From assembly GCA_031260485.1 (NCBI GenBank), contig JAIRJU010000122.1:1-32959 (forward strand): a stretch of 32,959 nucleotides of DNA. The letters run 5' to 3'. The notes beneath the pieces are model-generated. The model was not told the DNA's origin, ran no database searches, and saw nothing but the letters and a program-made list of their open reading frames with translations. This DNA comes from Pseudomonadales bacterium. GTDB taxonomy: Bacteria > Pseudomonadota > Gammaproteobacteria > Pseudomonadales > Pseudohongiellaceae. The position numbers and the translations under genes were made by a program. This document shows, one piece after another, positions 1 through 26,791 of the stretch (position 1 is the first letter of the stretch; each line of letters opens with the position of its first letter).

Positions 1-2
1 TG

Positions 3-455
3 GCGGCGCCAGACACTGAAGCAAATACTGACGCCACCAAACCAAGCGCCGCCGTGAAAATCGAGGCAGTAAGCGGCAAGGTGATTCCTCTGGTGGCGGG
101 AGAGCGCTTGACGATTCCAGCCGCTGCGCCACAAGCAACAGCATCATCCATCGCGGCGCCATCAATCGCACGCGATCAACTGGCGCCGGATGAGGTTGAG
201 GTGAAGCTGGCCTGGCGGGTGGGGATGCTGGTGTTTCAAGGCGAACCGCTGGAAACCGTGCTGCAAGAAATTGGCCGCTATACCACGGTGAAACTGGAGG
301 CGGATGCCGCCATCCGCGATATCCGCATAGAGGGCCTGTTTCGTGCGGGCGACATTGATGGCCTGCTCATTTCGATGGAAAAGAATTTCAACGTAAGTTC
401 GCAACGCACCGGGGCAGACCAGATTCTGTTCACCGCGCGTACCCAGGAGGAATGA
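3..455 (+). CDS. FecR-family anti-sigma regulator, C-terminal part (5' end outside window)
   Basis: The frame is open from the first base of the window, so this is the 3' end of a longer gene; the ATG/GTG at 54 is only the first in-window start. FecR proteins sit in the inner membrane and pass the state of an outer-membrane TonB receptor to a FecI-type ECF sigma factor. What is visible is the end of the FecR domain (VSGKVIPLVAGERLTI), a linker rich in Ala and Pro, then the usual C-terminal periplasmic module with its 'aWR.G.LVFQGEPLETVLQEIGRY' pattern and the IEGLF strand. The stop lies 10 bases before the receptor gene, whose N-terminal STN domain is the expected partner. The sigma factor gene should lie just upstream of the window. 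The family call is firm; the ligand is unknown. Confidence 0.85.
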   Translation, partial: AAPDTEANTDATKPSAAVKIEAVSGKVIPLVAGERLTIPAAAPQATASSIAAPSIARDQLAPDEVEVKLAWRVGMLVFQGEPLETVLQEIGRYTTVKLEADAAIRDIRIEGLFRAGDIDGLLISMEKNFNVSSQRTGADQILFTARTQEE

Positions 456-465
456 CTGGGCAATC

Positions 466-3400
466 ATGATCAAAGCCAAGGGGAGCCAAGCAGGGTGCAT
501 AAAGGCAAGAGCAGCGCTTCCTGTTGCGGGCTTGAGCAGCGGCGGCAGGCTGGGAAGCTGGGCAATGGCGGGGTGTCTGGTGGCGGTATCGTGCCTGGCG
601 TTTGCGCAGAACGAAGGAACGTTCCATTTCGATATTCCACGGCAGTCAGTGCAAAAAGCGCTGCTGGACTTGGCGCAGCAGGCGCAACTGCCGCTGCTGT
701 TGCCCATGAATGCCTTCAGCGATTTGCAGGCCAATGCGCTTGATGGCGAGTATTCGGTGCCCGAAGCGCTGGCGCGTTTGTTGGAAGGAACCCGCGTAAA
801 AGCGCGGCTCGATCAATCAGGGCAGTTGATCGTCGAAAAAATTGCCGATAGCGGCGTTAACAACAACCTTACAGGGGAAGCACGCATGTCTGAAAACAAA
901 ACCAGAAAAAATTTGTTGGCCGCTGCCATTGCGGGCCTGTTTTCAGGCGCGGCGGAACACGCGCTGGCGCAGGAGGCGGCATCCGCCCAAGGGCTCGAAG
1001 AAATTACCGTTACCGGCAGCCGCATCCGCAACACCTCGGGCTTCGAGACGCCCACGCCTGTCACCTCGATCACGCCCTCTGAATTGAAGAGTTTCGAGCC
1101 GGGTAACACCGTGTCGCAGCAGTTGAATGCGCTGCCGCAATTTTTCAACAACCGCACCTCGCAGCAATCGGCTGATGGCAGCCGCTTCAGTCCGGCGGCC
1201 AACACCTACACCTTTCTCAACTTGCGCAGCCTCGGCGGCAACAGAACGCTGGTGTTACTCGATGGGCATCGTTTGCAACCGTCGGATAAAGCCGGCACGG
1301 TGAATCCTGATTTACTGCCCAATGCCTTGATGCGCAGTGTCGATGTTGTCACTGGCGGCGCGTCGGCGGCTTACGGCGCGGATGCCGTCGGCGGCGTGGT
1401 GAACTTTATTTTGGACCGGGAGTTCGAGGGGCTCAAACTGGAAGCCAGCACCGGCCAGCACGAAGGCGGCGTGGGCCAGCAGTGGCAGGTTGGTGTGGCG
1501 GCGGGCTTGTCTTTCATGGCGGGGCGCCTGCATGTCGTCGGTTCTTTCGACAACTTGCAGATTGATCAGATTCGCGGCGATCGCAGCAGCATCAGCAGCT
1601 TTCGCCGTTGGGGTTGGGTGCGCAATCCAGATTGGACGCCTACTGCGCCGCTCGGCGTGCCGCAGCGGCTGACCTTTCCCGATGTCGTTTCGACGCTATC
1701 TTCACCCACCGGCCTGATTACCGCACCGGGCACGCCGCTCAACCGGATGCAGTTTTCGCTGGATGGCAGCGGCATCGTGCCCTTCGTCAACGGCAGTGTC
1801 ACCTCGCTGCCGGGTCAGCAAGGCGGCACCAATTCCACCACCGGCGGCCCTGAAGCGGCGCTTGCCTACGACACTTTCGACAACAGCCCTTCGGCGTCGG
1901 CGGTAGTGGTGCGCTCCAGCTTTCTCGGGGTGAAGTACGAATTCTCCGAGCGCTTGAGTTTCACGCTGGATGGCCGCGCGGGCCGCACCGAGTCGAATAA
2001 CCATTCGGTACGCGGCGGTTTTGAACTGGAATCGCCCTGGAACATGTTGATCGCGCCCGACAATGCCTTTCTGCCTGCGCAGGTGCGGGATTTGATGCTC
2101 GCCAACAACATCAGGGAACTGAATGTCAGCAAACTGGGTTCCTGGGTCGATCGGCCTGAGGTGGGTTCCAATACCATTACCGAGAATGTCTTGACGCAAT
2201 GGCAGGTGAGTACTGGCTTCGAGTACAAACTTCCGGGTGTCGAGTGGACCTTGGAAGGGCATTATCAAACAGGCGAATCGAAGCGTAACCCTGAAGGCAT
2301 CAATGTGATTCGAGAAGATCGCCTGTACCTCGCCATGGATGCGGTGCGCGATCCTGGCAGCGGAAAAATCGTATGCCGTGTGCAACTCTACAACCCCACG
2401 GTTGAACAATTGCGCGCCGCGGTGGCGGGCCGCAGCTCTGGCATTCCGCTCGATCCCACCAAACCGCCGGGCGTGCCGGGCAATACCAAGCCTTTGGAAT
2501 CACCGATTGGTCTTGATAACACGATTGCCGCGTGCGTGCCGCTCAATCCCTTGGGCAGCGGCAACATGAGCCGGGAAGCGCTTGATTATGTGACAAGCTA
2601 CAAAGGCGCCGATGGCATCGTGACGCAGAATTTCGCCGAACTGCTTTTGAGCGGCGAGTTATACCCCCTGCCGGCAGGGATGCTGAGCTTCGCCGCAGGG
2701 CTGACTTGGCGAGAACAATCGTTCTACGATTTTCCGGTGACGAACAGCGGCATCGGTGTCGATGGCAAGATTGTCACTACCGCCGATCTCGGCCCACCCA
2801 TCAACGCGCCTGAGTTGGGCATTCGCGGCATTCCTGCCGGTATCGAAACCGGCAGCCCGAACCTGCATCTCTTTTCCACGGTGCCCAACATCGCTGGGGA
2901 CACCAGTGTCACGGAATGGTTCGGTGAATTGCAGGTGCCCGTGTGGGAATGGCGCGGCGGCCAGCGCATCGATACCAACCTGGCATTTCGGCGCTCGAAT
3001 TACGTGCGCAGCGGTGTCTCCGATAGCTGGAAGATCGGCATCGAGTCGCGCTTGCATCAGGATTGGCGCCTGCGGCTGACGCGCTCGCGCGACGTGCGCG
3101 AACCGACATTTCAGGAGCTGTTCGATGCCCAAGGCGGCGGTTCAGCGGTAAATGACCCTTTCTTCAATAACGCCAGCATTCAGACGAATACGCTATCGGG
3201 CGGCGATCCCAACCTGGCGCCTGAAATCGGCGATACCTCGACCGCGGGGCTTATCTGGCAGCCGAGTTTCATGACGGCGCTGGAAGGCTTGCAGGTGGCG
3301 CTCGATTGGTACGACATCAAAATCGCGGATCGTGTCGATACGCTTACCGCGCAACGCATCCTCGACGAATGCTACCGTAACAGCCTCTTTTGCGATCGCA

Positions 3401-3981
3401 TCACGCGCGATTCTGCCACACAGCAATTGGTGAACGTGCGTCAATCCTACATGAACCTCAGCCAGGCGGCGGTGTCGGGTACTGATCTTGAGATTTCGTG
3501 GCGACATGCGGTAAGTTTCTTCGGCGGCGCGGCGGAAAACATCGGCCTGCGCTGGTTGGGTGCGTATTTGGACGAATCATCCACCACGCCGTTCGGCGGT
3601 ACGCCGCGTAATATTGCGGGGCAGGTGGGCACGCCGCGCTATACGCACGTGCTCACCGCCAACTACGGTATCGGTGCGTATTCGTTCCAACTGCAAAACC
3701 GTTTTGTTGATTCCACCCTGCTCAATGTCGATTGGGTCGAGGGGCGTGATGTGGACATCAACTCGGTGGCATCCATGAGCTGGTGGAATGCGAGTGTTGG
3801 CTACCGTGGCGAGACGCGCGGCGGCGCGGCCTGGAGCGTGAATCTCAACATACAGAACCTGTTGAACGACGAGCCGCCAGTGGTGCCGAATTTCAGCACG
3901 CGCGGCGGCAGCCAGAGCTTTCCGGCGTCGTATGATGTGTTTGGGCGGCGCTATAACCTGAGTCTCAATTACAGTTTTTGA
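466..3981 (+). CDS. TonB-dependent receptor with N-terminal STN (FecA-type signalling) domain
   Basis: Outer-membrane beta-barrel receptor for energised uptake, 1171 aa, long for the family. Visible parts in order: a signal peptide (about 1-48, ending CLAFAQ), an STN domain (about 52-124, FHFDIPRQSVQKALLDLA), a second signal-peptide-like stretch (141-169, MSENKTRKNLL...HALAQ), a TonB box-like LEEITVTGSR (177-186), a plug with VDVVTGGASAAYGADAVGGVVNF, and a barrel ending in the terminal Phe of LSLNYSF. The STN domain fits signalling to the FecR protein encoded just upstream. The second hydrophobic segment is odd: in ordinary FecA-type receptors the STN domain leads straight into the TonB box. 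Either an STN protein became fused in frame to a complete receptor, or translation also starts at 886. The substrate cannot be read from sequence; the downstream MFS transporter hints at an aromatic acid. Confidence 0.9.
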   Translation: MIKAKGSQAGCIKARAALPVAGLSSGGRLGSWAMAGCLVAVSCLAFAQNEGTFHFDIPRQSVQKALLDLAQQAQLPLLLPMNAFSDLQANALDGEYSVPEALARLLEGTRVKARLDQSGQLIVEKIADSGVNNNLTGEARMSENKTRKNLLAAAIAGLFSGAAEHALAQEAASAQGLEEITVTGSRIRNTSGFETPTPVTSITPSELKSFEPGNTVSQQLNALPQFFNNRTSQQSADGSRFSPAANTYTFLNLRSLGGNRTLVLLDGHRLQPSDKAGTVNPDLLPNALMRSVDVVTGGASAAYGADAVGGVVNFILDREFEGLKLEASTGQHEGGVGQQWQVGVAAGLSFMAGRLHVVGSFDNLQIDQIRGDRSSISSFRRWGWVRNPDWTPTAPLGVPQRLTFPDVVSTLSSPTGLITAPGTPLNRMQFSLDGSGIVPFVNGSVTSLPGQQGGTNSTTGGPEAALAYDTFDNSPSASAVVVRSSFLGVKYEFSERLSFTLDGRAGRTESNNHSVRGGFELESPWNMLIAPDNAFLPAQVRDLMLANNIRELNVSKLGSWVDRPEVGSNTITENVLTQWQVSTGFEYKLPGVEWTLEGHYQTGESKRNPEGINVIREDRLYLAMDAVRDPGSGKIVCRVQLYNPTVEQLRAAVAGRSSGIPLDPTKPPGVPGNTKPLESPIGLDNTIAACVPLNPLGSGNMSREALDYVTSYKGADGIVTQNFAELLLSGELYPLPAGMLSFAAGLTWREQSFYDFPVTNSGIGVDGKIVTTADLGPPINAPELGIRGIPAGIETGSPNLHLFSTVPNIAGDTSVTEWFGELQVPVWEWRGGQRIDTNLAFRRSNYVRSGVSDSWKIGIESRLHQDWRLRLTRSRDVREPTFQELFDAQGGGSAVNDPFFNNASIQTNTLSGGDPNLAPEIGDTSTAGLIWQPSFMTALEGLQVALDWYDIKIADRVDTLTAQRILDECYRNSLFCDRITRDSATQQLVNVRQSYMNLSQAAVSGTDLEISWRHAVSFFGGAAENIGLRWLGAYLDESSTTPFGGTPRNIAGQVGTPRYTHVLTANYGIGAYSFQLQNRFVDSTLLNVDWVEGRDVDINSVASMSWWNASVGYRGETRGGAAWSVNLNIQNLLNDEPPVVPNFSTRGGSQSFPASYDVFGRRYNLSLNYSF
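872..888 (+). promoter_or_regulatory. Possible internal ribosome binding site and start codon inside the receptor gene
   Basis: AGGGGAAG lies 6 bases before an in-frame ATG at 886 whose product would begin with a normal signal peptide (MSENKTRKNLL, Ala-rich core, ALAQ cleavage site) and then a TonB box and plug. Starting here gives a 1031-aa receptor without the STN domain. Whether it is used cannot be told from sequence. Confidence 0.45.
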
Positions 3982-4022
3982 CCCTTGTACAACGCGTGAT
4001 CCTTTGAGGAGTGGCTACTTAA

Positions 4023-4457
4023 ATGTGTGGACTGTTTGGAATTGACAGCAAGATGCGCAAGGCGCTGGCATCTATGCTACTGAGCGCAGCGCTGGCCTTG
4101 GTGGGGCAGGGGGCGTTTGCCCAGCATGGCCATCCGCTGCAAGGCAGTTGGAGCGGTAACTGGACCAGCGGCAGCCAGCAAGGGCGGCTGCTGGTGCTGC
4201 TGGACTTCAGTGTTGATCAGGTGATTTCAGGCAGCATCATCGAAGATGGCGTGCGCACGCCCATCAGCGAAGCCAGCCTCGATCCCGACACCTGGAGCGT
4301 AACGCTCAAAGGCGAACAGCAGGCGCCCGATGGCAGCAGCGCCCCGCTTGAAATCAAAGGCAAGATCGAAAATCTGGGCTCGATCACGGAGCGCAGCATT
4401 GTCGGTACCTGGCGCAAAGGCACAGCGAATGGCGCTGTGCGTCTCACCATAAATTGA
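4023..4457 (+). CDS. Small secreted protein of unknown function
   Basis: 144 aa with a signal peptide ending near GQGAFAQ. The mature part is beta-rich and looks like a compact barrel or sandwich: LQGSWSGNWTSGS near the start and a closing IVGTWRKGTANGAVRLTIN. I recall similar proteins with a 'GxWxGxW ... GTWxxGxxxGxFxxTR' layout beside DUF6152 genes in Acidobacteria and Proteobacteria, but no function is known to me. The start at 4023 has GAGGAG 11 bases upstream; a second ATG at 4054 (MRKALASML) would give a cleaner signal peptide but has a poor ribosome site. It lies 41 bases after the receptor gene and is probably in the same operon. Its stop codon falls inside the first unit of a 15-bp tandem repeat. 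Confidence 0.75.
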   Translation: MCGLFGIDSKMRKALASMLLSAALALVGQGAFAQHGHPLQGSWSGNWTSGSQQGRLLVLLDFSVDQVISGSIIEDGVRTPISEASLDPDTWSVTLKGEQQAPDGSSAPLEIKGKIENLGSITERSIVGTWRKGTANGAVRLTIN

Positions 4458-4519
4458 TGAATGTTCAATTGATGAATGTTCAATTGATGGACGTTCAATT
4501 GTTGGACGTTCAATTGATA
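4452..4519 (+). repeat. Tandem repeat, 15-bp unit, four copies plus a partial fifth
   Basis: Unit AATTGATGAATGTTC occurs at 4452 and 4467 without change, then twice with small changes (GGACGTTC at 4482 and 4497), and ends with AATTGATA. It starts over the stop codon of the preceding gene and ends 14 bases before the next ATG, leaving the AGGAGAG ribosome site free. The unit length is a multiple of three, and in the frame of the next gene it is open but has no start codon. Confidence 0.95.
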
Positions 4520-4533
4520 ATCAGGAGAGTGTT

Positions 4534-4962
4534 ATGAAACAAGCTAGTCGTATGTCACAAGCTAATCGTATGCCGCAAGCCAAGCGCAGCCAGAGTTTGC
4601 TGCTGGGCGCGGCGCTGATGCTGAGCGGTGCCGCGTATGCTCACCATTCGTTCCCCGCGCAATACGACATCAACAAGCCCGGCACGGTGACAGGGATGGT
4701 GACGAAAGTGGATTGGCGTAATCCGCATGTTTATTTCTTCATGGATGTGAAGAATCCCGATGGCAGCATTACAGGGTGGTCTTTCGAGTTGGCCAATGTG
4801 TCTGCCATGCGCAGCCAGGGCTGGAGCAAGGAAACGCTGCACGCGGGCGATCTATTGGAGGTATCGGGCTCACTGGCGCGCGATGGCAGCCCGCTGCTCA
4901 ACGCCACCGCGGTCAAGCGTGTGGATGGCGAACAGTTGCTGAGTTCCGGCAGCCGTCTTTGA
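4534..4962 (+). CDS. DUF6152-type secreted protein
   Basis: 142 aa. It has a signal peptide ending at AAYA followed by the family hallmark HHSFPAQYD, then GTVTGMVTKVDWRNPHVYFFMDV, a conserved Trp in ITGWSFEL and the DLLEVSG...ARDGSPLL block. Proteins of this family are small beta-barrel, OB-like periplasmic proteins whose function is not known; the name rests on pattern recall. The start is set by AGGAGAG 6 bases upstream. The first residues contain a small imperfect internal repeat (SRMSQANRMPQAKR), which is not conserved in the family and may be slippage. It sits in an apparent operon between two other secreted proteins, an arrangement I associate with this family in other soil bacteria. 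Confidence 0.8.
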   Translation: MKQASRMSQANRMPQAKRSQSLLLGAALMLSGAAYAHHSFPAQYDINKPGTVTGMVTKVDWRNPHVYFFMDVKNPDGSITGWSFELANVSAMRSQGWSKETLHAGDLLEVSGSLARDGSPLLNATAVKRVDGEQLLSSGSRL

Positions 4963-4994
4963 GATCGGTTTCTTATCTCCAGGGTAAATAAACG

Positions 4995-5816
4995 ATGAGT
5001 CAATATAAAATCAAAAAAATACAATGCCTGGCGCTCGCAGTGTTGCTGGCACTGCCATGGATGGCTCAGGCGCAGAGGCGCACAGGGGAAAGCAAGCCAA
5101 CGCCGCGCTACCCTGACGGCTCCGTCAACTTTGGGCCAGCACCTGGCGAGCGCGGGCATTGGGATACTGGTGTGGGCAACTTGTCGGAAAACTTCGTGCA
5201 GATGAATGGCGCCTTTTTGGTACATCTCGACGAAGACCTCGATAAAGTGGCGCCGTTTCAGCCGTGGGCCAGAGCCTTGGTGAAATACCGCCTCGAAACC
5301 CTGGGCCGCGACGATCCGCATCCGCACTGTATGCCGAACGGCGGGCCGCGGCAGTTCCATACGCCGGTGGGCATCGAGATCACCGAGAGCCGCGATCGCA
5401 GCAAGATTTATGTGCTGTCGGGTGGCGGGCCGCATAGCTGGCGTACCATTTATATGGATGGCCGCGAGCATCCCAGTCTGGATGATTACGATCCCACCTA
5501 TTTCGGCCATTCGATCGGTAAATGGGAGGGCGATACGCTGGTGGTCGATAGCGTGCATTTCAACGAGCGTTTCTGGTTTGCGCGCCGCCCGACCGGCATG
5601 GTGCATACCGATGCGCTGCATCTGATTGAACGTCTCTCGCGGCCCGACTACAACACGCTGCATTACGAGGTAACGATCGACGACCCCAAAGCGTACACGC
5701 GGCCCTGGACCGCAAGCTGGAATGTGCCCTGGATAGAGGAAGACATCGAAGAGTATTTCTGCCAAGACTACAACCTCGATGTGGATCACATCGTTGGCCC
5801 AGGCGGGGTTGAATGA
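4995..5816 (+). CDS. Secreted protein of unknown function, 273 aa, of a family often found beside DUF6152
   Basis: The signal peptide ends at PWMAQAQ. The mature protein carries blocks I recognise as recurrent in a large uncharacterised family of soil bacteria: DKVAPFQPWARAL, CMPNGGPRQF, WRTIYMDGREHP, the Gly/Trp motif GHSIGKWEGDTLVVDS, FNERFW, a DDPKAYTRPWT block, and a C-terminal EEYFCQDYN. Only two cysteines remain in the mature part (in CMPNGG and FCQD), so a disulfide is possible. No known catalytic motif is visible. It starts 32 bases after the DUF6152 gene with an AGGG ribosome site and ends an apparent run of three secreted proteins. A role in handling the receptor's substrate in the periplasm is inferred from position only. 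Confidence 0.75.
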   Translation: MSQYKIKKIQCLALAVLLALPWMAQAQRRTGESKPTPRYPDGSVNFGPAPGERGHWDTGVGNLSENFVQMNGAFLVHLDEDLDKVAPFQPWARALVKYRLETLGRDDPHPHCMPNGGPRQFHTPVGIEITESRDRSKIYVLSGGGPHSWRTIYMDGREHPSLDDYDPTYFGHSIGKWEGDTLVVDSVHFNERFWFARRPTGMVHTDALHLIERLSRPDYNTLHYEVTIDDPKAYTRPWTASWNVPWIEEDIEEYFCQDYNLDVDHIVGPGGVE

Positions 5817-5848
5817 TAGTCTTTTGCAAGCGGATAGCGGCGCAAGCT

Positions 5849-5874
5849 CCCCTCGCCCACTTGTGGGAGAGGGG
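5849..5874. repeat. Dispersed GC-rich palindrome (REP-like), copy 1
   Basis: A 26-base hairpin with core CGCCCACTTGTGGG flanked by CCCCT and AGGGG, followed by a short G-rich tail. The same 26-base element, with compensating changes in the stem (A/T to G/C), recurs at 26766. It lies between the secreted-protein gene and the MFS gene and could end or attenuate transcription, but has no T-run. Confidence 0.8.
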
Positions 5875-5949
5875 CCGGGGGAGAGGGAAATACTCATGCG
5901 AATAGTTGCCTGTTGATTACAAAACTCTAAAACCAGGATTCCATATCCC

Positions 5950-7302
5950 ATGACTCAAAGCATACAGGTAAACGAATTCGTTGATGGGCAGCGCATTCGC
6001 AAGTTCAACATCATGCTCCTGGTGTGGAGTTTTCTGACGATGTTCGCCGATGGCTTTGATCTCAATTCACTGGGTTTTGCGGCGCCGGATCTCACGCGCG
6101 CCTGGGGTGTGGAACGCAGTGCGATGGGCGGCGTGCTCAGCGCGAATCTCTACGGTATTTTTCTGGGTGCACCATTACTCGGCTGGCTTGGCGACAAATA
6201 TGGCCGCCGTCCTCTCATCATTGGCGGTACGCTGCTCTATGGTGTTGTCACCTTGCTCATGGCCCACACCACCACGATGGAACAGATGATGACGCTGCGC
6301 TTCATCGCAGGCGTCGGCATCGGCGGCATCATGCCGAACACCATCTCGCTCAATTCTGAACTTGCGCCCAAAAAATACCGCTCCATGCTGGTGATCCTGA
6401 TGTTCATGGGCATCACCACGGGCAGCACGGGCGTGGGTCTCATCGCCGCTTATTTCATGCCTACTTACGGCTGGCCGGTGATTTTTCATACTGGCGGCGT
6501 GTTGCCGCTTGTGGTGGCTTGCGGCTTGTATTTTTATTTACCGGAATCGCTGAAACTGCTCGCGATCAACCCCGAGCGCCGCCATGAACTGATCGCCACC
6601 GCGCGCAAGATGCGCCCCGATTTGTCGATTGCCGACGATGCCGTGTTCATCAATCCGCCCAGCGTCACCGGCAGCGAAGGCAGCGTGGAGGAATTGTTCA
6701 AAGGCGGTCTCGCGCGGATCACGCCGCTACTGTGGCTCTGTTACACCATCGCGCTCATGGCCAATTTTTTCCTCAACAACACAATCCCCTTGATCTTCGA
6801 TAAATATGGCATCGACGCGCAGGAAGCCGCGCTGGTTGCCACCTGGTATCACGCGGGCGGCACTTTCGGCGGATTGATAATCAGCGTGCTGCTCGATCGC
6901 AGCGGCTTTTTGATCGTGGCAGCCTTGTTCCTGCTCGCCATCCCCAGCATCGCGCTGCTGGGCGCGGTAGACATGCCATTCTATGGCTTGGCGCTTGCAT
7001 CCAGTATGGCGGGCGTGGCGATCCTGGGCGCGCAATCAGGCAATAACGCCGCAGCGGGAATGATCTACCCCACCAACGTCCGCGGCAAAGGCGTTGGTGT
7101 CGCGCTCTCGGTGGGCCGCGTCGGCGCGATTCTCGGCCCCTATGCCGGTGCCGCCTTGCTCGGCATGGACATCACGATGCAGAGCCTGTTTTTGGTTTCA
7201 GCCATTCCTGTGGTCATTGGTCTTGTTGCGGCGCTCGCCCTTTCCTGGTTGTGTTATAGGCGCTTCAACAGTTTTCAGTTGGATGATACGCCGGTGGAAT
7301 AG
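5950..7302 (+). CDS. MFS transporter, aromatic acid:H+ symporter (AAHS) type
   Basis: 450 aa with about 12 membrane segments. Family markers are the first-helix acidic motif FADGFDLN (34-37, DGFD), the cytoplasmic loop motif GDKYGRRP between helices 2 and 3, and a long central loop around 220-245. AAHS carriers such as PcaK and BenK bring protocatechuate, 4-hydroxybenzoate or benzoate into the cell with protons; which substrate applies here cannot be read. AGGA lies about 12 bases before the ATG. It follows the three secreted proteins after 133 bases that hold a palindrome, so it may be the last gene of the receptor operon or have its own promoter. Together with the TonB receptor it could give a route across both membranes. 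Confidence 0.85.
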   Translation: MTQSIQVNEFVDGQRIRKFNIMLLVWSFLTMFADGFDLNSLGFAAPDLTRAWGVERSAMGGVLSANLYGIFLGAPLLGWLGDKYGRRPLIIGGTLLYGVVTLLMAHTTTMEQMMTLRFIAGVGIGGIMPNTISLNSELAPKKYRSMLVILMFMGITTGSTGVGLIAAYFMPTYGWPVIFHTGGVLPLVVACGLYFYLPESLKLLAINPERRHELIATARKMRPDLSIADDAVFINPPSVTGSEGSVEELFKGGLARITPLLWLCYTIALMANFFLNNTIPLIFDKYGIDAQEAALVATWYHAGGTFGGLIISVLLDRSGFLIVAALFLLAIPSIALLGAVDMPFYGLALASSMAGVAILGAQSGNNAAAGMIYPTNVRGKGVGVALSVGRVGAILGPYAGAALLGMDITMQSLFLVSAIPVVIGLVAALALSWLCYRRFNSFQLDDTPVE

Positions 7303-13033: not shown

Positions 13034-13227
13034 TGCGCGCCGTCTTGGTGTGCTGGCGCCTCCAGAGTTGTGCGCAAGCGGACAGTGCCTTGTCCCTTTT
13101 CGGACATTTGCCTGGCGTTGCGCGCGAGGCGTTATAGCTAGGTGATTGATTTTTCAATACTTCTCTATATGGAACAAAATTTGCTTATCCTCAACGAATA
13201 ACAATCATGCCTTGGAGAATGCCCATC

Positions 13228-15699
13228 ATGCTACGCGATCATCTACGCTCATTCTGGCGCGGCGTGGTGAACAACAAACTCACCACGGGTATCAATGTGG
13301 CTGGCCTTGCTCTGGGCTTGGCGGTGTTTTTTGCTTTGACGTTCTACGTGCAGCGGGAGTTTTCCTACGATACGCAGTGGCGGGATGCAGAGAGGATTTA
13401 TGTGATTGCCGGGCAGCAGGAGATGCTTAGTGGTAATTCAGTACCCAGGGTGCCTCTCTCATTTTATGTGCTTGGAACCCATTTGCTGAGCCGTTATCCC
13501 GATGCTTTCGAGGCGTATGCCAGAAATGTAAGAAGCCAGGGCGCGGTTGTCGTCGATGAAAAAGAATATGCCAATAAAATGCTGAATTATGTCGAACCTG
13601 GTTTTCTCAATCTGCTGCAACTGGACACTGTGGAAGGCTCTTTGCAAGCAGTATTCACCGACCCACATTCCATTGCCATCAGCGCCCAAGAAGCTGAAAT
13701 CATGTTTGGCCAACAATCGCCATTGGGGCGCATACTGACTTTTAATTCGCAACAAAACAGTCCAGCGGACTATGTCATAAAAGCGGTCTATCGTGTTCCC
13801 GCGCCAAGCTCGTTGGAATTTATGAATTTTCTGGCGCTGTTAGATTCTGTTGCATCGCCGTTAAAGAATATCGACTTGGATAGCTGGAGTCGCAATTCAC
13901 CCGCGTTTGCTGACAATTATCTCAAACTTAATCCTGGATTTTCTGCCCGCCAGTTGGAAGCAGAACTGCGTGCTTTTATGGATGAAAATCACTACATGGA
14001 TGCCGGCGACAACAAAACGCGCTTTGTTTTCATGCCGCTGCGGGATGTACATTTGATCCCTTCGAGCTTTAATCCAGGCGGGGGTACTGACCGCCTGCGT
14101 ATTCTTGTCGCTATTGGTGTGATGGTGTTGCTGATCAGCGGGTGTAACTTCGTGATGCTGGGTACCTTGCGTTCGGTTGATCGCATGAGAGAGGTGGGTA
14201 TTCGCAAGGCTGTGGGGAGCGAAACGCGGCAGTTGTTGCGCCAATGCTTATTCGATGTGTTTGTGCAAGCGCTTACGGCAGCGTTATTGGCGGTCGTGCT
14301 ATTGGAGCTTGGTTTGCCCGTGTTGCAGGCACATCTGGGGGTGAACTTGGCGCTGGATTTTTGGCATTGGCGTAACTTGGCACAGTGCTTGGGCATCGTG
14401 GCTGCTTTCACATTATTGAGCGGTTTTTATCCAGCGGTATTGATGTCGCGCGGCCAGCCTGCGGCGCTGCTGCGCAATAGCAGCGGAGCGATGGTATCGA
14501 GCGGCACTATGCTGCGCAGAGTTTTGGTGGGAGTTCAGTTCGCGGTTGTCATTGGACTGCTGCTGGCTAGCGCGGTGGTACGGCAGCAAATTGAATACAC
14601 CCGTAATCGCGATCGTGGTTATAGTTTGGAAAATATCATGGGCGTGCGCATCAACGACCGTAGTGTCATGGCAAAAACCGCGGCTGTGGCAAATGAATTC
14701 AAACAGGTACCAGGTGTGGCGGGCGCTGCGGTGGGTGCCATGTCACCCGGCATGATCATTGGCGCAACGCCTACGCCATTCACGCACGTGGCCGCTGATG
14801 GAAAGTCAATCGAGGCAACACTACAGACCGGCGGCGGCGTGGGGGCTGGCTATTTCGGCGTCATGTCCGTGCCGCTTCTGGCGGGGCGTGAATTTTCCAC
14901 TGACGTGGAAGGTGTGTTGCCGCCAGGTGCGCAGGGAGAGATAAGCAATGTGCTGCTGAATGTTGCGGCGATCCATGCCTTGAATTTTACTACTCCCAAA
15001 GATGCCATTGATGAATTGATTACGGCGGAGCTTGTTGGCAGTGATGGGCAGATAACGCATCAGAGCATGAGAGTAATCGGTGTCGTTGCGGACACACAGT
15101 TTGCGTCCATGATGTTGCCTCCCAGGGCTGAGTATTATCGCTTTACAGCCACCAATATATTTATTCCAATCAAGTTTACGCCAGATGCCGATCAGGCAGC
15201 GGTGCTGAATGATTTACGCGGTGTTTGGCAGCAACTGGTGGGCGATGTGGCGTTCTTGCCGTTGTCGCCGGGTTTGATGGAAATGAATGTATTGGCAGAT
15301 GAAGAATTTGAAGCCCGCATTGTCATCGGCAGCACGCTATTGGCGCTGGTGATTGCGCTCTTGGGTTTGTATGGCCTGGTGGAAGCCACGGTCGCCAAGC
15401 GCGTGAAGGAAATCGGCGTGCGCAAGGTAATGGGCGCGGGCAATACGGCGATTGTTGCGCTGCTGCTGTGGCAATTCTCCAAACCCATTGTCATCGCCAA
15501 TCTCGTGGCCTGGCCGCTGGGATTTTGGGGCATCTCGCGTTGGTTGCAACGTTTTCCGTATCAGCTCGATATGGGTGTGATTGCAGGATCGGCGCTGGCG
15601 GCGAGCATCGTGGCTTTGCTCATCGCGTGGCTCACCATTAGTATGATGGCCACACGCGCGGCGAGCGCGAAGCCCGTGCTGGCCTTGCGGTATGAGTAA
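13228..15699 (+). CDS. MacB/FtsX-type ABC transporter permease, paralogue 1
   Basis: 823 aa from the ATG at 13228 (MLRDHLRSFWRG); GGAGA lies 9 bases upstream, whereas the ATGs at 13207 and 13219 are badly placed. Layout: cytoplasmic start, membrane helix at about 24-44, a large periplasmic MacB-type domain, an FtsX block with helices around 290-430 (RMREVGIRKAVGSE), a further helix near 440-460, a second periplasmic domain, and a C-terminal FtsX block (RVKEIGVRKVMGAG) with the final helices. Such permeases need a separate ATPase and usually export peptides or move lipids or signals across the envelope. No ATPase gene is in the window. A tandem paralogue of exactly the same length starts 29 bases after its stop. 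Confidence 0.88.
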   Translation: MLRDHLRSFWRGVVNNKLTTGINVAGLALGLAVFFALTFYVQREFSYDTQWRDAERIYVIAGQQEMLSGNSVPRVPLSFYVLGTHLLSRYPDAFEAYARNVRSQGAVVVDEKEYANKMLNYVEPGFLNLLQLDTVEGSLQAVFTDPHSIAISAQEAEIMFGQQSPLGRILTFNSQQNSPADYVIKAVYRVPAPSSLEFMNFLALLDSVASPLKNIDLDSWSRNSPAFADNYLKLNPGFSARQLEAELRAFMDENHYMDAGDNKTRFVFMPLRDVHLIPSSFNPGGGTDRLRILVAIGVMVLLISGCNFVMLGTLRSVDRMREVGIRKAVGSETRQLLRQCLFDVFVQALTAALLAVVLLELGLPVLQAHLGVNLALDFWHWRNLAQCLGIVAAFTLLSGFYPAVLMSRGQPAALLRNSSGAMVSSGTMLRRVLVGVQFAVVIGLLLASAVVRQQIEYTRNRDRGYSLENIMGVRINDRSVMAKTAAVANEFKQVPGVAGAAVGAMSPGMIIGATPTPFTHVAADGKSIEATLQTGGGVGAGYFGVMSVPLLAGREFSTDVEGVLPPGAQGEISNVLLNVAAIHALNFTTPKDAIDELITAELVGSDGQITHQSMRVIGVVADTQFASMMLPPRAEYYRFTATNIFIPIKFTPDADQAAVLNDLRGVWQQLVGDVAFLPLSPGLMEMNVLADEEFEARIVIGSTLLALVIALLGLYGLVEATVAKRVKEIGVRKVMGAGNTAIVALLLWQFSKPIVIANLVAWPLGFWGISRWLQRFPYQLDMGVIAGSALAASIVALLIAWLTISMMATRAASAKPVLALRYE

Positions 15700-15728
15700 G
15701 AACAATAATTCTTTGGAGAATGCCTATC

Positions 15729-18200
15729 ATGCTACGCGATCACTTACGTTCATTCTGGCGCGGCGTGGTGAACAACAAACTCACCACGGGTATCAATGTG
15801 GCGGGCCTTGCTCTGGGTTTGGCGGTGTTTTTTGCCTTGACGTTCTACGTGCAGCGGGAGTTTTCCTGGGATGCGCAGTGGCAAGATGCGGATAGGATTT
15901 ACGCGGTTGCCTGGAGCCAGGAGAGCCCCAATGGCCATACCCTGCCGATTGTGGGTTCAGGCCCGCTGCCTTATGTGCTGGGCACCAGTTTGCTTAGCCG
16001 TAATCCTGATGCGTTTGAGCTTTATGCTCGGCGGTTGGGCACTGGGGGTACCTTGGTGGTCGATGGCGAGAATTATTCCAACCGGCAACTGCATTATGTC
16101 GAACCTGCGTTACTGGATTTATTCCCGCTAGAAACACTGGAAGGATCCTTGCAAGCGGTATTTGCTGATCCTCATGCCATCGCCATTAACTCAGCGGTGG
16201 CGACAACGCTGTTCGGGCAACAAACGGCGCTGGGCCGTGTTCTCACCTTCGTTTCTCCATTGAGAGGTGCAGCGGACTATACGATCAAGGCGGTTTACCA
16301 CATTCCTGAACCAAGTATATTGAGCAGCATACAACTCATGACCTTGCTCGATCCCGCCGTGCCGCCATTATTGAATGTGAACCTGGAGGATTGGGGTGCA
16401 CTCCCCGGTTTTGGTGGCGGCTACTATTTCAAGCTGCGTCCAGGCGTTTCCGCGCCTGCGCTCGAAGCGGCGCTGCGCGCCTTCATGGATGAAAATCACT
16501 ATCTGGAATCTGGTGCTGGTATTAAGAGCCGGTTTTCATTTGTGCCGCTGCGGGATATACATTTGATGCCGTCGCTTTTCGATACAGGAAATAACGTCGA
16601 GCGTTTGCGTGTTCTTGCCGCCATTGGTGCCCTGGTATTGGCAATCAGCGGCTGTAACTTCGTGATGCTGGCCACCTTGCGCTCGCTTGATCGGATGCGT
16701 GAAATCGGTATTCGTAAAACCTTGGGTGGCGAAGTAGCGCAATTGCTGTGGCAGTACTTACTCGATGTTTTTCTGCAAACCTTGCTGGCGGCATTGCTGG
16801 CCATCGCGTTATTGGATCTGTGTTTGCCGTGGTTGCGCACCGCGATGAACTTGCCATCGACCTTTGAACTCTGGAGCTGGCATAGGCTCGGCGCAGGTTT
16901 TGCCGTCGTGGTGATTTTTACCTTGTTGAGCGGGCTTTATCCTGCCTTGCTGCTGTTGCGCGGTAAGCCCGCCACGCTCTTGCGCAATAGCGCCAGCGCG
17001 GTGGTGGCGAGCGGTAATGCTTTGCGTAAATTGCTGGTGGGAATTCAGTTTGCGATAGTCGTCAGCTTGTTGCTGGCGAGCGCGGTAGTGTGGCAGCAGA
17101 TTGACTACACGCGCTCTCATAGTCGTGGTTACAGCGTGGAGCGAGTCGTTGGTTCGCATATCAATACCAAGACTGAGGAGCTGAGCACCAAAGTAGAAAC
17201 GCTAGTGAAAGAACTCAAGCGTGTGCCCGGTGTGGCGGCAGCGGCAGCGGGAGCGCTATCACCGGGAATAATAACGATTAACGCGCCAACCGGTGTTGTG
17301 GCCATAGCGTCTGATGGTGCTATGACCGAAGCGTCGCTGCAAAGCCTCAACGCGGGTGCAGACTATTTCAGCGTGATGTCCGTCCCGATTTTGGCAGGGC
17401 GTGAATTTTCCGACGACATAGACACAGTAACGACGCCCAGCGGCGATGGGCAGAGTGCTCCGGTCAGGAATGTGCTATTGAATGTTGCGGCGGCCCGCGC
17501 GCTGGGCTTTGCGACGCCAGAGGCAGCAGTAGGCAACATTGTTACCGTAAAATTAGCCAAAGGTTCAAACCTGCGCGTGATAGGCGTGGTTGCGGATACG
17601 CAATTTTCCTCGCCACTGCTGCCGCCCGTTGCGCAGTTTTATAGTTTTTCCACGCGAAGTAGCTTTATTGCAGTCAAGTTGAATCCAGGCGTTGAGCGCG
17701 CCGCCGTGACGGAAGATTTGCGGAAAGTTTGGCAGCAAGTGCTGGGGGATGTGCCGTTTGACGTGCAGTCGCCTGAGGAGCTAGGTGACATGCTTCAGCG
17801 TGAAGCGTTCGAAGCGCATATCGTGACCAGCAGCGCCATGCTGGCTTTGGCGATTGCGCTCTTGGGCTTATATGGCCTGGTGGGCGCCACGGTTGCCAAG
17901 CGTGTGAAGGAAATTGGCGTGCGCAAGGTGATGGGCGCGGGCAATACGGCGATCGTTTCCTTGCTGCTGTGGCAATTCTCCAAACCCATTGTCATCGCCA
18001 ATCTCGTGGCCTGGCCGCTGGGGTATTGGGGAATCTCGCGCTGGTTACAGCGTTTTCCGTATCAACTCGACACGGGCGTGATTGCAGGATCGGCACTGGC
18101 GGCGAGCATCGTGGCTTTGCTCATCGCCTGGCTCACCATCAGTGTGATGGCCACGCGCGCGGCGAGTGCGAAGCCGGTGCTGGCGCTGCGTTATGAATGA
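15729..18200 (+). CDS. MacB/FtsX-type ABC transporter permease, paralogue 2
   Basis: 823 aa from ATG 15729 (MLRDHLRSFWRG), with the same GGAGA-to-ATG spacing as its twin. The domain plan is identical. The first 55 or so codons and the last 120 or so codons are nearly identical in DNA to paralogue 1, with mostly silent changes, while the two periplasmic domains and the middle FtsX block differ widely (for example LVVDGENYSNRQLHYVEPALLDLF against VVVDEKEYANKMLNYVEPGFLNLL). It follows its twin closely, so the two are probably co-transcribed and may form a heterodimer. The O-methyltransferase gene starts 6 bases after the stop. Confidence 0.88.
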   Translation: MLRDHLRSFWRGVVNNKLTTGINVAGLALGLAVFFALTFYVQREFSWDAQWQDADRIYAVAWSQESPNGHTLPIVGSGPLPYVLGTSLLSRNPDAFELYARRLGTGGTLVVDGENYSNRQLHYVEPALLDLFPLETLEGSLQAVFADPHAIAINSAVATTLFGQQTALGRVLTFVSPLRGAADYTIKAVYHIPEPSILSSIQLMTLLDPAVPPLLNVNLEDWGALPGFGGGYYFKLRPGVSAPALEAALRAFMDENHYLESGAGIKSRFSFVPLRDIHLMPSLFDTGNNVERLRVLAAIGALVLAISGCNFVMLATLRSLDRMREIGIRKTLGGEVAQLLWQYLLDVFLQTLLAALLAIALLDLCLPWLRTAMNLPSTFELWSWHRLGAGFAVVVIFTLLSGLYPALLLLRGKPATLLRNSASAVVASGNALRKLLVGIQFAIVVSLLLASAVVWQQIDYTRSHSRGYSVERVVGSHINTKTEELSTKVETLVKELKRVPGVAAAAAGALSPGIITINAPTGVVAIASDGAMTEASLQSLNAGADYFSVMSVPILAGREFSDDIDTVTTPSGDGQSAPVRNVLLNVAAARALGFATPEAAVGNIVTVKLAKGSNLRVIGVVADTQFSSPLLPPVAQFYSFSTRSSFIAVKLNPGVERAAVTEDLRKVWQQVLGDVPFDVQSPEELGDMLQREAFEAHIVTSSAMLALAIALLGLYGLVGATVAKRVKEIGVRKVMGAGNTAIVSLLLWQFSKPIVIANLVAWPLGYWGISRWLQRFPYQLDTGVIAGSALAASIVALLIAWLTISVMATRAASAKPVLALRYE

Positions 18201-20416: not shown

Positions 20417-20914
20417 ATGAATGCTTTTTTCATCTGGCTGGAAAGCTCCAGCCTTAGCCTCTGGGTGCGGGGCGAGAGCGGCGCGGACATGGCGTTTCCC
20501 GTCATCATCAGCCTGCACGCGATTGGCATGGGCTTTCTCGCGGGCATTGCCAGCATGATCAATCTGCGCATTCTTGGGGTGGCGCCGAAGGTGCCGCTGG
20601 GCTGCTTGGCGGCGTTTTTGCCGGTGGCCTGGCTGGCGTTGGCGATCAACGTGGTGTCGGGTGTGTTGCTGCTGGTGGGGTATCCGACCAAGGCGCTCAC
20701 CAATTGGGTGTTCTATGTGAAGCTGTTGTGCCTCGCGGGGGCGCTGTGGGGGTTCTTGCATTTGCGCAGGCAGGTGTTGTTGGCGCCAACGCCGTTGAGC
20801 GCCGCGAGGCTCGTTGCCTACCAGCGCGTGGCGGCGTTGGCGACCTTGCTGTGGGTGGCGGCCATCGTCGCGGGGCGCCTTTTGGCCTATACCTATATTC
20901 ACCTTATGTCATGA
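20417..20914 (+). CDS. Small inner-membrane protein, DUF6644-like, paralogue 1
   Basis: 165 aa from the ATG at 20417 (MNAFFIWLESSS); the ORF track start 45 bases earlier reads as non-coding. It has four or five membrane helices: VIISLHAIGMGFLAGIA, a helix at VAWLALAINVVSGVLLLVG, VFYVKLLCLAGALWGFLH, and a last one at AALATLLWVAAIVAGRLLAYTY. Conserved features shared with the next gene are the LHAIG/LHFIG helix with a membrane His, the INLRILGV/IDLRLLGL pair, NVVSG, and the WxxVIVAGR end. The family name is from recall; function unknown. The gene downstream begins 10 bases later. Confidence 0.65.
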   Translation: MNAFFIWLESSSLSLWVRGESGADMAFPVIISLHAIGMGFLAGIASMINLRILGVAPKVPLGCLAAFLPVAWLALAINVVSGVLLLVGYPTKALTNWVFYVKLLCLAGALWGFLHLRRQVLLAPTPLSAARLVAYQRVAALATLLWVAAIVAGRLLAYTYIHLMS

Positions 20915-20924
20915 GTTTCTCGCC

Positions 20925-21413
20925 ATGATCGACGCACTTACGCAGTGGCTCAAAAGCACGTGGTTGTCGAAAGTGTTTTTGCATAACGGCGGCTGGTCGT
21001 GGCCGCTCAGCGAAACGCTGCATTTCATCGGTTTGTGTATGCTGATTGGCAGCATCGGTCTCATCGATCTGCGCTTGCTCGGCCTGGGCAAGGGCATTCG
21101 TTTTCTGGATTTGCATCGCTTCGTGGTGTTTGCGGTGGCGGGGTTTGCGCTGAACGTGGTGTCGGGGTCGCTGTTTTTGATTGGCGAGCCAGATCAGTAT
21201 CTGCTCAATCATGCCTTTCATTTCAAAGTGGCGTTTTTCGTGATTGCGGGGGGCAACGTGCTGGCGTTCTATGGCACGCAGTTTCAGCGGCTGAAATTAT
21301 TGGGGCCGGATGACGTAGCACCCTTGCCGGCGCGGGTGATGGCGGCGATCTCGCTCATTTGTTGGATCGGCGTGATCGTCGCGGGGCGGATGTTGACGTT
21401 TTATCGGCCTTGA
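20925..21413 (+). CDS. Small inner-membrane protein, DUF6644-like, paralogue 2
   Basis: 162 aa from the ATG at 20925 (MIDALTQWLKST), which lies 10 bases after the previous stop; the longer ORF from 20814 overlaps the previous gene in another frame. Membrane helices are at TLHFIGLCMLIGSIGLIDL, FVVFAVAGFALNVVSGSLFL, FKVAFFVIAGGNVLAFYG and VMAAISLICWIGVIVAGRML. It shares the His-containing first helix, the DLRLLGL motif, NVVSG, a K-containing helix start (FHFKVAFF / FYVKLLCL) and the VAGR ending with its neighbour, so the two probably arose by duplication and may form a complex. Conserved His in membrane helices could bind haem or a metal, but that is a guess. Confidence 0.65.
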   Translation: MIDALTQWLKSTWLSKVFLHNGGWSWPLSETLHFIGLCMLIGSIGLIDLRLLGLGKGIRFLDLHRFVVFAVAGFALNVVSGSLFLIGEPDQYLLNHAFHFKVAFFVIAGGNVLAFYGTQFQRLKLLGPDDVAPLPARVMAAISLICWIGVIVAGRMLTFYRP

Positions 21414-21632: not shown

Positions 21633-24230
21633 TCAGTCCTCATTCCATCTCTCGCTGGCGCCGCCGAAGGCGTAAGTTATTTTTAGCCAGGCACCGCGCG
21701 GTGGCGCGGGGGTGCGGAACTGTTGGTTTACCAGGGTGTAGAGACTGGTCATGCCTGAGAGGCCGTAGGTTGAATAGGTTTTATTGAACAGGTTGTCGAT
21801 ATTGAGCGCCAGGCGCAGCGCGCCGATCTGGTAGTGAGCGTCGAGATCGACCACGGTATAGCGGGGGAGTTTGCCGTCTGGGTCAGCGTTGTTCTCGTTG
21901 CCATGCGCGTATTGCTCGCCTACCACCATCAGGGTGGCGCCAAGGCGAAAATCGCGGGTGATTGGGTAGGCGGCGTGCAGTTTGAGAGTGCTGGCGGGAA
22001 TGCCGGGGATGCGGTTGCCGCTTTGCACGTTTTCGCCAGTGATCGTGGTGAACGGTGAGCGGTAGCGAGCTTGCACGTAGCCGTAGTTGGCGGCGAGTTC
22101 CAGCCGGTCGAGGTTTGCTTGAGCGCCAAATTCGATGCCACGGCGTTCGGTGTCGCCAACATTGCTGAAGTAGCCATAGGTCGCCGAGGTGGCGATGAAC
22201 TGAATGTCGTTGCGCAGGCGTGAGGTGTAAAGCGCCGCGTTCCAGGAGAGCGGGTTGGCTTGGGAGAGGTGTCCACGTGCGCCGAGTTCGAGGCTGCGGG
22301 CGGTTACTGCCTGGAGATCGGGATCGCCGTTGAAGCCGGTCGGTAAGCTGCAAGGGTGGTTCGGATCGGCGCAGGAGAGTTCGATCGAGGTTGGCGCCCG
22401 CATGGCTTCGCTATACGCGCCAAACAGGCCGGTGGTGCGCGCGAAATTGTAGTTGAAGCCCAGGCGGGGGTTGAAGCGCTGATAGCGGTGTACGCCATCG
22501 AGGCTGTTGGTTTGCGGCCCGGCCACGGCGCCAGAAGGGATGCCGTTGGGCGTGGCGAGCGCGCCCGGCGCGGTATTGGCGTAGCGGTAGGCGTTGAGGT
22601 AATTCGGGTTGTAGTAGGAAACGCCAGTGATGTCATCGGTCCATGAATAGCCGCCATCGTCGTTGAGATATTGCTGGTTCGCGCCTGCCTGATCGAGCGC
22701 GGTGTCGTCGTGGCTGCCGGCCAGGGTGAGGCTGAGTTGCGGTGTCACAGCGAAGGTATCGGTGAAATACACATTGGCTTCCCGCAGTGTCGAGCGCAGT
22801 GCGATCGCGGCCAGGTCGTTGCTGCCGCTGAAGGCGGGAAGGTTGGTGGAGGAAGGCGGCAGGCCGTTGGCGGTGAAGCCGTAGGCGCGATTGGGTGTGA
22901 CCACTGTCTGGTAGTCGAGCAAGCGCGCGAGGAAGGTGTCCTGGCGGTAGGCAATGGTGGAGCGGTTGAACACGAGGCCAAAGGTAAAGGCGTTTTTGTG
23001 GCCCGCGAGCGGCGCGGTAGTAGCCCATTGGAGGGAGGCGCCAGTGGTCTTTTGGCGCGTGGTGGAGGTCACGAGGCTAGCGTTGATGGTGTTGGTCCAG
23101 CGTTCGTAGCCGAGCGCCAGGGCGTCGGCTCCGGTGACGGCATTGAGGGCGCTGCCATTTAGCGTGGCGTTGGCGCAGCGCAGGCCGCTGGCGTTTGTGC
23201 TTAGCGAACCGGTGCTTGGCGAACCATCGCTGTTGAAGCAGCCATCATCCAGATCGGCGTTGCTGTTCATGCTCTGTGTGTTGGATTGGCGGTGATACAC
23301 CTGTGCGGATAACAGGCTGTTGCTGCTCAATTGCTGGCTGGCCTTCAGATTGCCTAGATGCAGGGTATTGGCGATGGCATCGGGCGCCGTGTAGGCGGCT
23401 TTGGGATTGGCTAGCATGTCCATGGGCAGCGCTTGCGTGCCTTGCAACAGGGTGTCGGCCCAGGCGCCGGAGAGTTCGACCAAGCTGCGCTCGTCCGCGC
23501 TATGCCAGCGCGCCTTGCCGAAGGCTTGCTTCACCGTCGAGCCAGAGAAGTAGCGAAAGCCATCCTGCTTGTCATAGTTGCCTGCCAGGAAATAATCGGT
23601 GTGCGTGGCGGCGTCCGCTGTGCCTGCTTCGATGCTGCCTGCCCGGCGTTGGAACGAGCCGCCTAGCGCGCTGAGCGAGAGGCCTGGGTTGTCTTGCCCA
23701 TTGCGGGTGTTGACCAGCAAGGCGCCACCGAGCGTATTGAGGCCAAAAATCGGGTTGGAGCCCGGCTGCACCTGAACGCTGGACAGCGCGTTCATCGGGA
23801 TGAGATCCCAGTTGACGATGGAACCGAAGGGCTCATTGACCCGCACGCCATCGAAATACACCGCCAAGCCGACAGGCGCACCGAGCAGTGAGGTGGCCTG
23901 AAAGCCACGGTAGTTGATGTCATTCTGGTAGGGATTGCCGGTGCCATCGCTCACGCTCACTGCGCCGAGGTTGCTGTTGAGCAGGTTGGCCATGTTGGTG
24001 GCGTTTTGGCGCTGGATGTCGGCGGCGCTCAAGATCTGCGCATTGGTAGGCACTTGCGACAGCGGCGTGCCCGTGGTGTCGAGCAAGGTGGCCACGATCA
24101 CGATTTCATCCAGCGTGGGCGTTAGTGTGGGGCTTGGTTCCTGCGCGTGAACGGTGCTAGCCAGGGCGCTCAGCGCCGAGGCGCTGGCCATGCCAAGGAG
24201 GTGGCGGTGGAGGGGAAGCGGGCGATTCAT
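21633..24230 (-). CDS. TonB-dependent receptor, plain type (no STN domain)
   Basis: 865 aa from the ATG at 24230 (MNRPLPLHRHLLG), with GAGGAAA about 9 bases upstream; the ORF start at 24269 lies before that site. The signal peptide ends at STVHAQ, then a TonB box-like TLDEIVIVAT, a plug with QNDINYRGFQATSLLGAPVGLAVYFDGVRVNEPFG and the PGSNPIFGLNTLGGALLV motif, and a barrel. The end is unusual: the normal aromatic last strand (WLKITYAF) is followed by nine extra residues, GGASERWNED. The plug resembles receptors for siderophore- or cobalamin-type ligands only at family level; the ligand is not known. It is divergent from the next receptor, with 206 bases between the starts. Confidence 0.88.
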   Translation of the reverse strand: MNRPLPLHRHLLGMASASALSALASTVHAQEPSPTLTPTLDEIVIVATLLDTTGTPLSQVPTNAQILSAADIQRQNATNMANLLNSNLGAVSVSDGTGNPYQNDINYRGFQATSLLGAPVGLAVYFDGVRVNEPFGSIVNWDLIPMNALSSVQVQPGSNPIFGLNTLGGALLVNTRNGQDNPGLSLSALGGSFQRRAGSIEAGTADAATHTDYFLAGNYDKQDGFRYFSGSTVKQAFGKARWHSADERSLVELSGAWADTLLQGTQALPMDMLANPKAAYTAPDAIANTLHLGNLKASQQLSSNSLLSAQVYHRQSNTQSMNSNADLDDGCFNSDGSPSTGSLSTNASGLRCANATLNGSALNAVTGADALALGYERWTNTINASLVTSTTRQKTTGASLQWATTAPLAGHKNAFTFGLVFNRSTIAYRQDTFLARLLDYQTVVTPNRAYGFTANGLPPSSTNLPAFSGSNDLAAIALRSTLREANVYFTDTFAVTPQLSLTLAGSHDDTALDQAGANQQYLNDDGGYSWTDDITGVSYYNPNYLNAYRYANTAPGALATPNGIPSGAVAGPQTNSLDGVHRYQRFNPRLGFNYNFARTTGLFGAYSEAMRAPTSIELSCADPNHPCSLPTGFNGDPDLQAVTARSLELGARGHLSQANPLSWNAALYTSRLRNDIQFIATSATYGYFSNVGDTERRGIEFGAQANLDRLELAANYGYVQARYRSPFTTITGENVQSGNRIPGIPASTLKLHAAYPITRDFRLGATLMVVGEQYAHGNENNADPDGKLPRYTVVDLDAHYQIGALRLALNIDNLFNKTYSTYGLSGMTSLYTLVNQQFRTPAPPRGAWLKITYAFGGASERWNED

Positions 24231-24385
24231 TTCAATAAATTTCCTCTGGCAAGCGGACTGCAGGGCCAATCAAGGCGGGCGTAGCCTTACGCAATATTAT
24301 TCTGATTTTCTTTCTCTCCCTACGTTTCTTTACCTGATTCACCGATATGGCGGCATATCGTGCGCGCCTGAAATTGGGTCAGTTG

Positions 24386-26765: not shown

Positions 26766-26791
26766 CCCCTCGCCCGCTTGCGGGAGAGGGG
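26766..26791. repeat. Dispersed GC-rich palindrome (REP-like), copy 2
   Basis: A 26-base hairpin with core CGCCCGCTTGCGGG, same length and flanks (CCCCT, AGGGG) and G-rich tail as the element at 5849. It lies between the receptor and phosphatase genes and may set their relative expression. Confidence 0.8.

Follow-up and report, generated by a model that had tools for sequence, protein, structure and literature searches.

Gene content of the locus

A contig from a Pseudomonadales bacterium (assembly GCA_031260485.1, contig JAIRJU010000122.1) was analysed over its entire length of 32,959 bp, referred to below as the window. The source genome comprises 3.14 Mb in 357 contigs and is 88.8% complete. 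Six genes arranged head to tail on the forward strand at positions 3–7302 had been put forward as a candidate uptake system, running from a signalling receptor through three secreted proteins to an inner-membrane carrier of aromatic acids. All six were confirmed at this position and on one strand: the end of a FecR gene, a TonB-dependent receptor with an STN signalling domain, three genes for exported proteins (here named P3, DUF6152 and P5), and a major facilitator superfamily (MFS) carrier, probably of the AAHS type. Gaps between consecutive genes are 10, 71, 76, 32 and 133 bp, none of which contains a terminator-like site. The trio of P3, DUF6152 and P5 is real and recurrent in three bacterial lineages, and its linkage is tighter than the window alone reveals.

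P3 (4053–4457, with an alternative start at 4023) is a small protein without an assigned family, and is followed by a 15-bp tandem repeat of 4.5 copies (4452–4518, no strand assigned). The DUF6152 gene (4534–4962) matches PF19649 with 81.4 bits against a cut-off of 27 (E = 5e-23). P5 (4995–5816) also belongs to no family, and has two cysteines that are invariant in the aligned sequences, as expected of an exported disulphide protein; D155, R157 and E212 are further conserved residues. Profile searches of Pfam and NCBIfam returned no family model for either P3 or P5, and a literature search on DUF6152 and on DUF6644, a small predicted membrane family considered below, found no paper. The AlphaFold2 (AF2) model of P3 is an eight-stranded barrel with a predicted local distance difference test (pLDDT) score of 90, while the P5 model consists of helices followed by a C-terminal domain of eight strands (pLDDT 77). 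Structure matches of both models in the PDB were to calycin-like or designed small barrels, all weak and none with an E-value below 0.001, and a PDB sequence search with the P5 and P3 profiles gave nothing meaningful.

Recurrence of the trio and the predicted histidine terminus of DUF6152

The source genome contains 27 places matching P5, 19 matching DUF6152 and five matching P3. All but one of the DUF6152 copies (18/19) are joined to P5 in a fusion (nine copies) or have it no more than 700 bp away on the same strand. Linkage was further assessed for 51 P3 copies, drawn from this genome, from loci of relatives retrieved with P3 as the only query and from two more genomes. For every copy (51/51), P5 or DUF6152 is encoded no more than 1 kb away on the same strand, and 50 copies have both within 4 kb, bearing out the expectation that the secreted genes form a repeated neighbourhood. 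P3 was present in 18 of the 96 relatives searched, namely all members of the same genus, all members of one sister genus and one further genome. Across 200 genomes of the phylum, P5 was found in five, all of which also encode DUF6152, and DUF6152 in 17 (Fisher p = 2e-6; neither this value nor the counts allow for kinship). A scan of named genomes located the trio in Acidobacteriota (loci L070–L074 and L077), and in Sphingomonadales, named Sphingobium and Croceibacterium plasmids carry P5-DUF6152 pairs next to TonB receptors. The P5 protein of the window resembles a Bryobacterales protein (53% identity) more than any paralogue found, which suggests transfer between phyla. Two variant genes were also observed, one in which P5 is fused to a dienelactone-hydrolase/S9-like domain (L061:4302-6221) and one encoding two P5 domains (L054:3283-4965).

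The DUF6152 protein of the window has the sequence AYA|HHSF at its predicted cleavage site, as well as an NPH motif. Among 180 DUF6152 sequences, a His-His pair near the domain start was found in 175, preceded by alanine or serine in 174, and the PH motif is kept in 169. The residues ahead of the pair are mostly AxA, VxA or LxA, as is usual for signal-peptidase sites. Distant homologues in other proteobacteria that lack P5 have A|HH in every case in which the start was viewed; nearly all of their genes are paired with a DUF6644 gene (L289–L302). Based on the AxA rule, the mature protein very probably begins with His-His after export, a feature newly recognised here. Histidine generally accounts for 2.6% of mature N-terminal positions, and a screen of exported proteins with an N-terminal histidine identified the metal binders DUF4198 (79% conservation) and DUF6702 (65%) (PMC12537917); DUF6152 is absent by name from the main text of that study. 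Given the near-invariant His-His start predicted for the mature protein, a metal site in DUF6152 is a strong prediction. Two adjacent DUF6644-like membrane genes that score below the family cut-off also occur elsewhere in the window (20426–21413), adjoining a TonB receptor gene (21633–24269).

Receptors, signalling and neighbouring genes

The contig starts inside the FecR gene (1–455, forward strand), such that only its C-terminal part is seen and any FecI gene would fall past the contig end. Family scores of the fragment are weak to moderate, with 19.6 bits for FecR_C (PF16344; cut-off 24.4, E = 9.6e-4) and an E-value of 8.2e-8 for the NCBIfam FecR model (NF007296). It is 39% identical over 118 amino acids to the complete FecR of a sister locus on another contig of this genome (C339), where the order is extracytoplasmic function (ECF) sigma factor, FecR, STN receptor. 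The fragment ends 10 bp upstream of the 1171-amino-acid receptor (466–3981), whose plug and barrel (PF07715, PF00593) exceed their cut-offs and whose STN domain (PF07660, E = 1.7e-4) falls below its own; the STN domain at the sister locus is above it. The FecR/STN signalling receptor named in the original prediction is really present.

An additional feature was found inside the receptor gene (873–972), where a Shine-Dalgarno-like AGGGGAA (873–879) and an ATG at 886 are accompanied by a second, in-frame signal peptide (residues 141–169) between STN and plug. In the paralogue on C339 (L239, around 7250–7300) this whole arrangement is conserved. In sister species, orthologues with 82% and 74% identity have no STN domain and begin at the internal signal peptide of the window receptor, to which the N-terminal signal peptide of one of them (G002:C334, L241) corresponds. 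The STN part of the window receptor looks like a later addition. Two receptor forms, with and without STN, arising from a dual start are possible, as is cutting between STN and plug; cleavage of a signalling domain has been reported in Pseudomonas (PMC11637429).

TonB receptors are over-represented beside the trio, as the proposed path from receptor to carrier would have it. They are the immediate neighbours of six of 21 clusters in the source genome, where about 0.5 would be expected from 34 receptors assuming ~2900 genes (an estimated genome-wide count). Receptor and trio recur together in several relatives, with varying receptors and gene orders. When 110 neighbours on the same strand were compared with 120 genes lying over 5 kb away at the same loci, the leading neighbours were pyrroloquinoline quinone (PQQ) propeller proteins (7/110 versus 3/120) and TonB barrels (6 versus at most 1). 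The remainder of the proposed path did not hold beyond the window, since an AAHS carrier and a FecR gene each occur within 4 kb of only one of the 51 P3 copies, in both cases the window's own, and the receptor orthologues of sister species lack STN. The chain from FecIR to the AAHS carrier is therefore private to the window locus, and only there can it fairly be inferred that the system is induced by its own ligand. The carrier gene (5950–7302, forward strand), whose best family is TIGR00895 (AAHS; 315 bits, below the curated cut-off of 418.6), lies outside the conserved module and was rejected as a part of it. A palindromic repeat (5849–5874, no strand assigned) occupies the gap between P5 and carrier, with a second copy in the window at 26766–26791.

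Genes of aromatic catabolism provide independent circumstantial support for the suggested link to aromatic compounds. A gallate dioxygenase above its NCBIfam cut-off lies beside DUF6152/P5 in the source genome and in an Acidobacteriota locus (L071), and within the genus DUF6152 is the next gene after each of the seven full-length gallate dioxygenase genes. Further examples are a p-hydroxycinnamoyl-CoA hydratase/lyase gene close to the trio in the sister genus and a gene for a class III extradiol dioxygenase that adjoins DUF6152 in Novosphingobium PP1Y. Other recurrent neighbours, isoleucyl-tRNA synthetase (IleRS) and DAHP synthase, were discounted as inherited synteny. Another protein that recurs next to P5/DUF6152 (L067, L187, L195, L210, L215 and L216) is secreted and, as judged by eye, has ankyrin-like repeats. 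Elsewhere in the window, two MacB/FtsX-type permease genes in tandem (13207–15699 and 15720–18200), whose starts are nearly identical, are followed by two methyltransferase genes.

Interpretation and comparison with known systems

The single occurrences of carrier and FecR argue against one fixed uptake system and for a periplasmic module plugged into different receptors. Judged by co-occurrence, the DUF6152-P5 fusions, export signals, the predicted mature His-His and the P5 cysteine pair, the conserved unit is P3, DUF6152 and P5. We propose, with a probability of roughly 40%, that this module is supplied by the receptor and acts in the periplasm on plant-derived aromatics, which it would bind and probably oxidise or demetallate, a reading in which we infer the substrate, the metal and the chemistry. 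A TonB receptor would import an aromatic compound of plant origin, either free or bound in a metal complex, and the barrels of P3 and P5 would hold it. With its N-terminal histidine, DUF6152 would bind a transition metal; together with P5 it would form one metal-dependent unit oxidising or demetallating the compound in the periplasm. The product would then be carried inwards, at the window locus by the AAHS carrier, where a FecR/STN circuit may have been added so that the ligand of the receptor can switch the genes on.

Several observations weigh against this proposal. No aromatic gene is adjacent at most trio loci; the seven gallate dioxygenase-DUF6152 cases are probably one inherited arrangement and not seven events; and in the sister genus DUF6152 was found at none of four gallate dioxygenase loci, one of which ends at a contig end. 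A PQQ dehydrogenase, which is a neighbour in other genomes, was rejected as a general partner in the source genome, where only one of 11 PQQ genes lies near P5, and the PQQ enrichment is modest. The DUF6152 profile found no relative among PDB sequences, and the weak structure matches, together with the only fair P5 model, count in the same direction.

Three other explanations were considered. The module could serve metal acquisition, in which case the receptor would import a metal-catecholate or metal-aromatic complex, DUF6152 would take the metal in a CopC-like manner, P3 and P5 would bind the organic part and the aromatic neighbours would be secondary. The weak resemblance of the two predicted barrels to ligand-binding calycins fits this idea, and the DUF6152-DUF6644 pair without P5 recalls CopC-CopD, although a homology of DUF6644 to CopD is unsupported by Pfam. 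FecR/STN circuits typically belong to receptors for iron chelates (PMC11637429), and of the N-terminal-histidine proteins DUF4198 (nickel) and DUF6702, both metal binders, the former neighbours TonB receptors (PMC12537917). Up to 27 copies per genome are nevertheless many for metal uptake, and neither metal ABC nor metal exporter genes emerged as recurrent neighbours of the trio, leaving metal acquisition a rather doubtful alternative. The trio might instead serve the envelope or a stress response, with no relation to nutrients, and have been copied beside receptors since both expanded in these genomes. Many copies do adjoin housekeeping genes such as those for IleRS and DAHP synthase, and DUF6152-DUF6644 pairs adjoin varied genes; we consider this unlikely in view of a receptor adjacency about ten times expectation in the source genome and the repeated links with ring-cleavage dioxygenases.

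Equally improbable is the fixed path of the original prediction, in which a receptor, three binding proteins and an AAHS carrier under FecIR control take up an aromatic acid. The gene order and gaps of the window are in its favour, and DdvT-DdvK of Sphingobium SYK-6 shows that a TonB receptor and an MFS carrier can import a lignin-derived acid (PMC6874591). Against it stand, besides the rarity of carrier and FecR at P3 loci, the palindromic repeat in the 133-bp gap ahead of the carrier and the closest receptor orthologues, which are without STN and, where contigs allow a view, away from the trio.

The trio ties one domain of unknown function and two families for which neither Pfam nor NCBIfam has a model into a single unit. 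This unit is shared by Acidobacteriota, Sphingomonadales and a pair of gammaproteobacterial genera, and P5 alone has as many as 27 matches in one 3 Mb genome. The near-invariant His-His terminus predicted for DUF6152 makes its function approachable by a single-protein experiment, and if the aromatic link is true, a periplasmic step would be added to the use that bacteria make of the breakdown products of lignin and tannins. As a speculation to which we give little weight, DUF6152-P5 could be a periplasmic metalloenzyme of a new, two-part kind that oxidises plant aromatics imported via TonB receptors; the small exported protein would carry a histidine-brace-like site, its barrel partner would hold the substrate, and DUF6152-DUF6644 would be its membrane-linked cousin.

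Among known systems, the CopC-CopD copper proteins place an exported N-terminal-histidine protein next to a membrane protein, an arrangement shared by DUF6152-DUF6644, whereas no sequence match to either copper family was seen. FecIRA-type signalling (e.g. FoxA/FoxR, PMC11637429) is similar in that FecR adjoins an STN receptor and the sister locus has the order sigma factor, FecR, receptor; the receptor described here differs in its second, internal signal peptide and Shine-Dalgarno-like sequence between STN and plug, and in being followed by the secreted trio. The dehydrodivanillate uptake system DdvT-DdvK likewise combines its receptor and inner-membrane carrier beside catabolic genes, but is under MarR-type control (DdvR), and the part of that account considered here describes neither a secreted trio nor STN/FecR signalling (PMC6874591). 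The N-terminal-histidine metalloproteins DUF4198, DUF6702 and the anglerases are also exported and have a histidine exposed by signal-peptide cleavage, DUF4198 having TonB receptors as neighbours (PMC12537917). DUF6152, a predicted metal binder, is a separate family that retains a pair of histidines and is tied to P5 by linkage or fusion.

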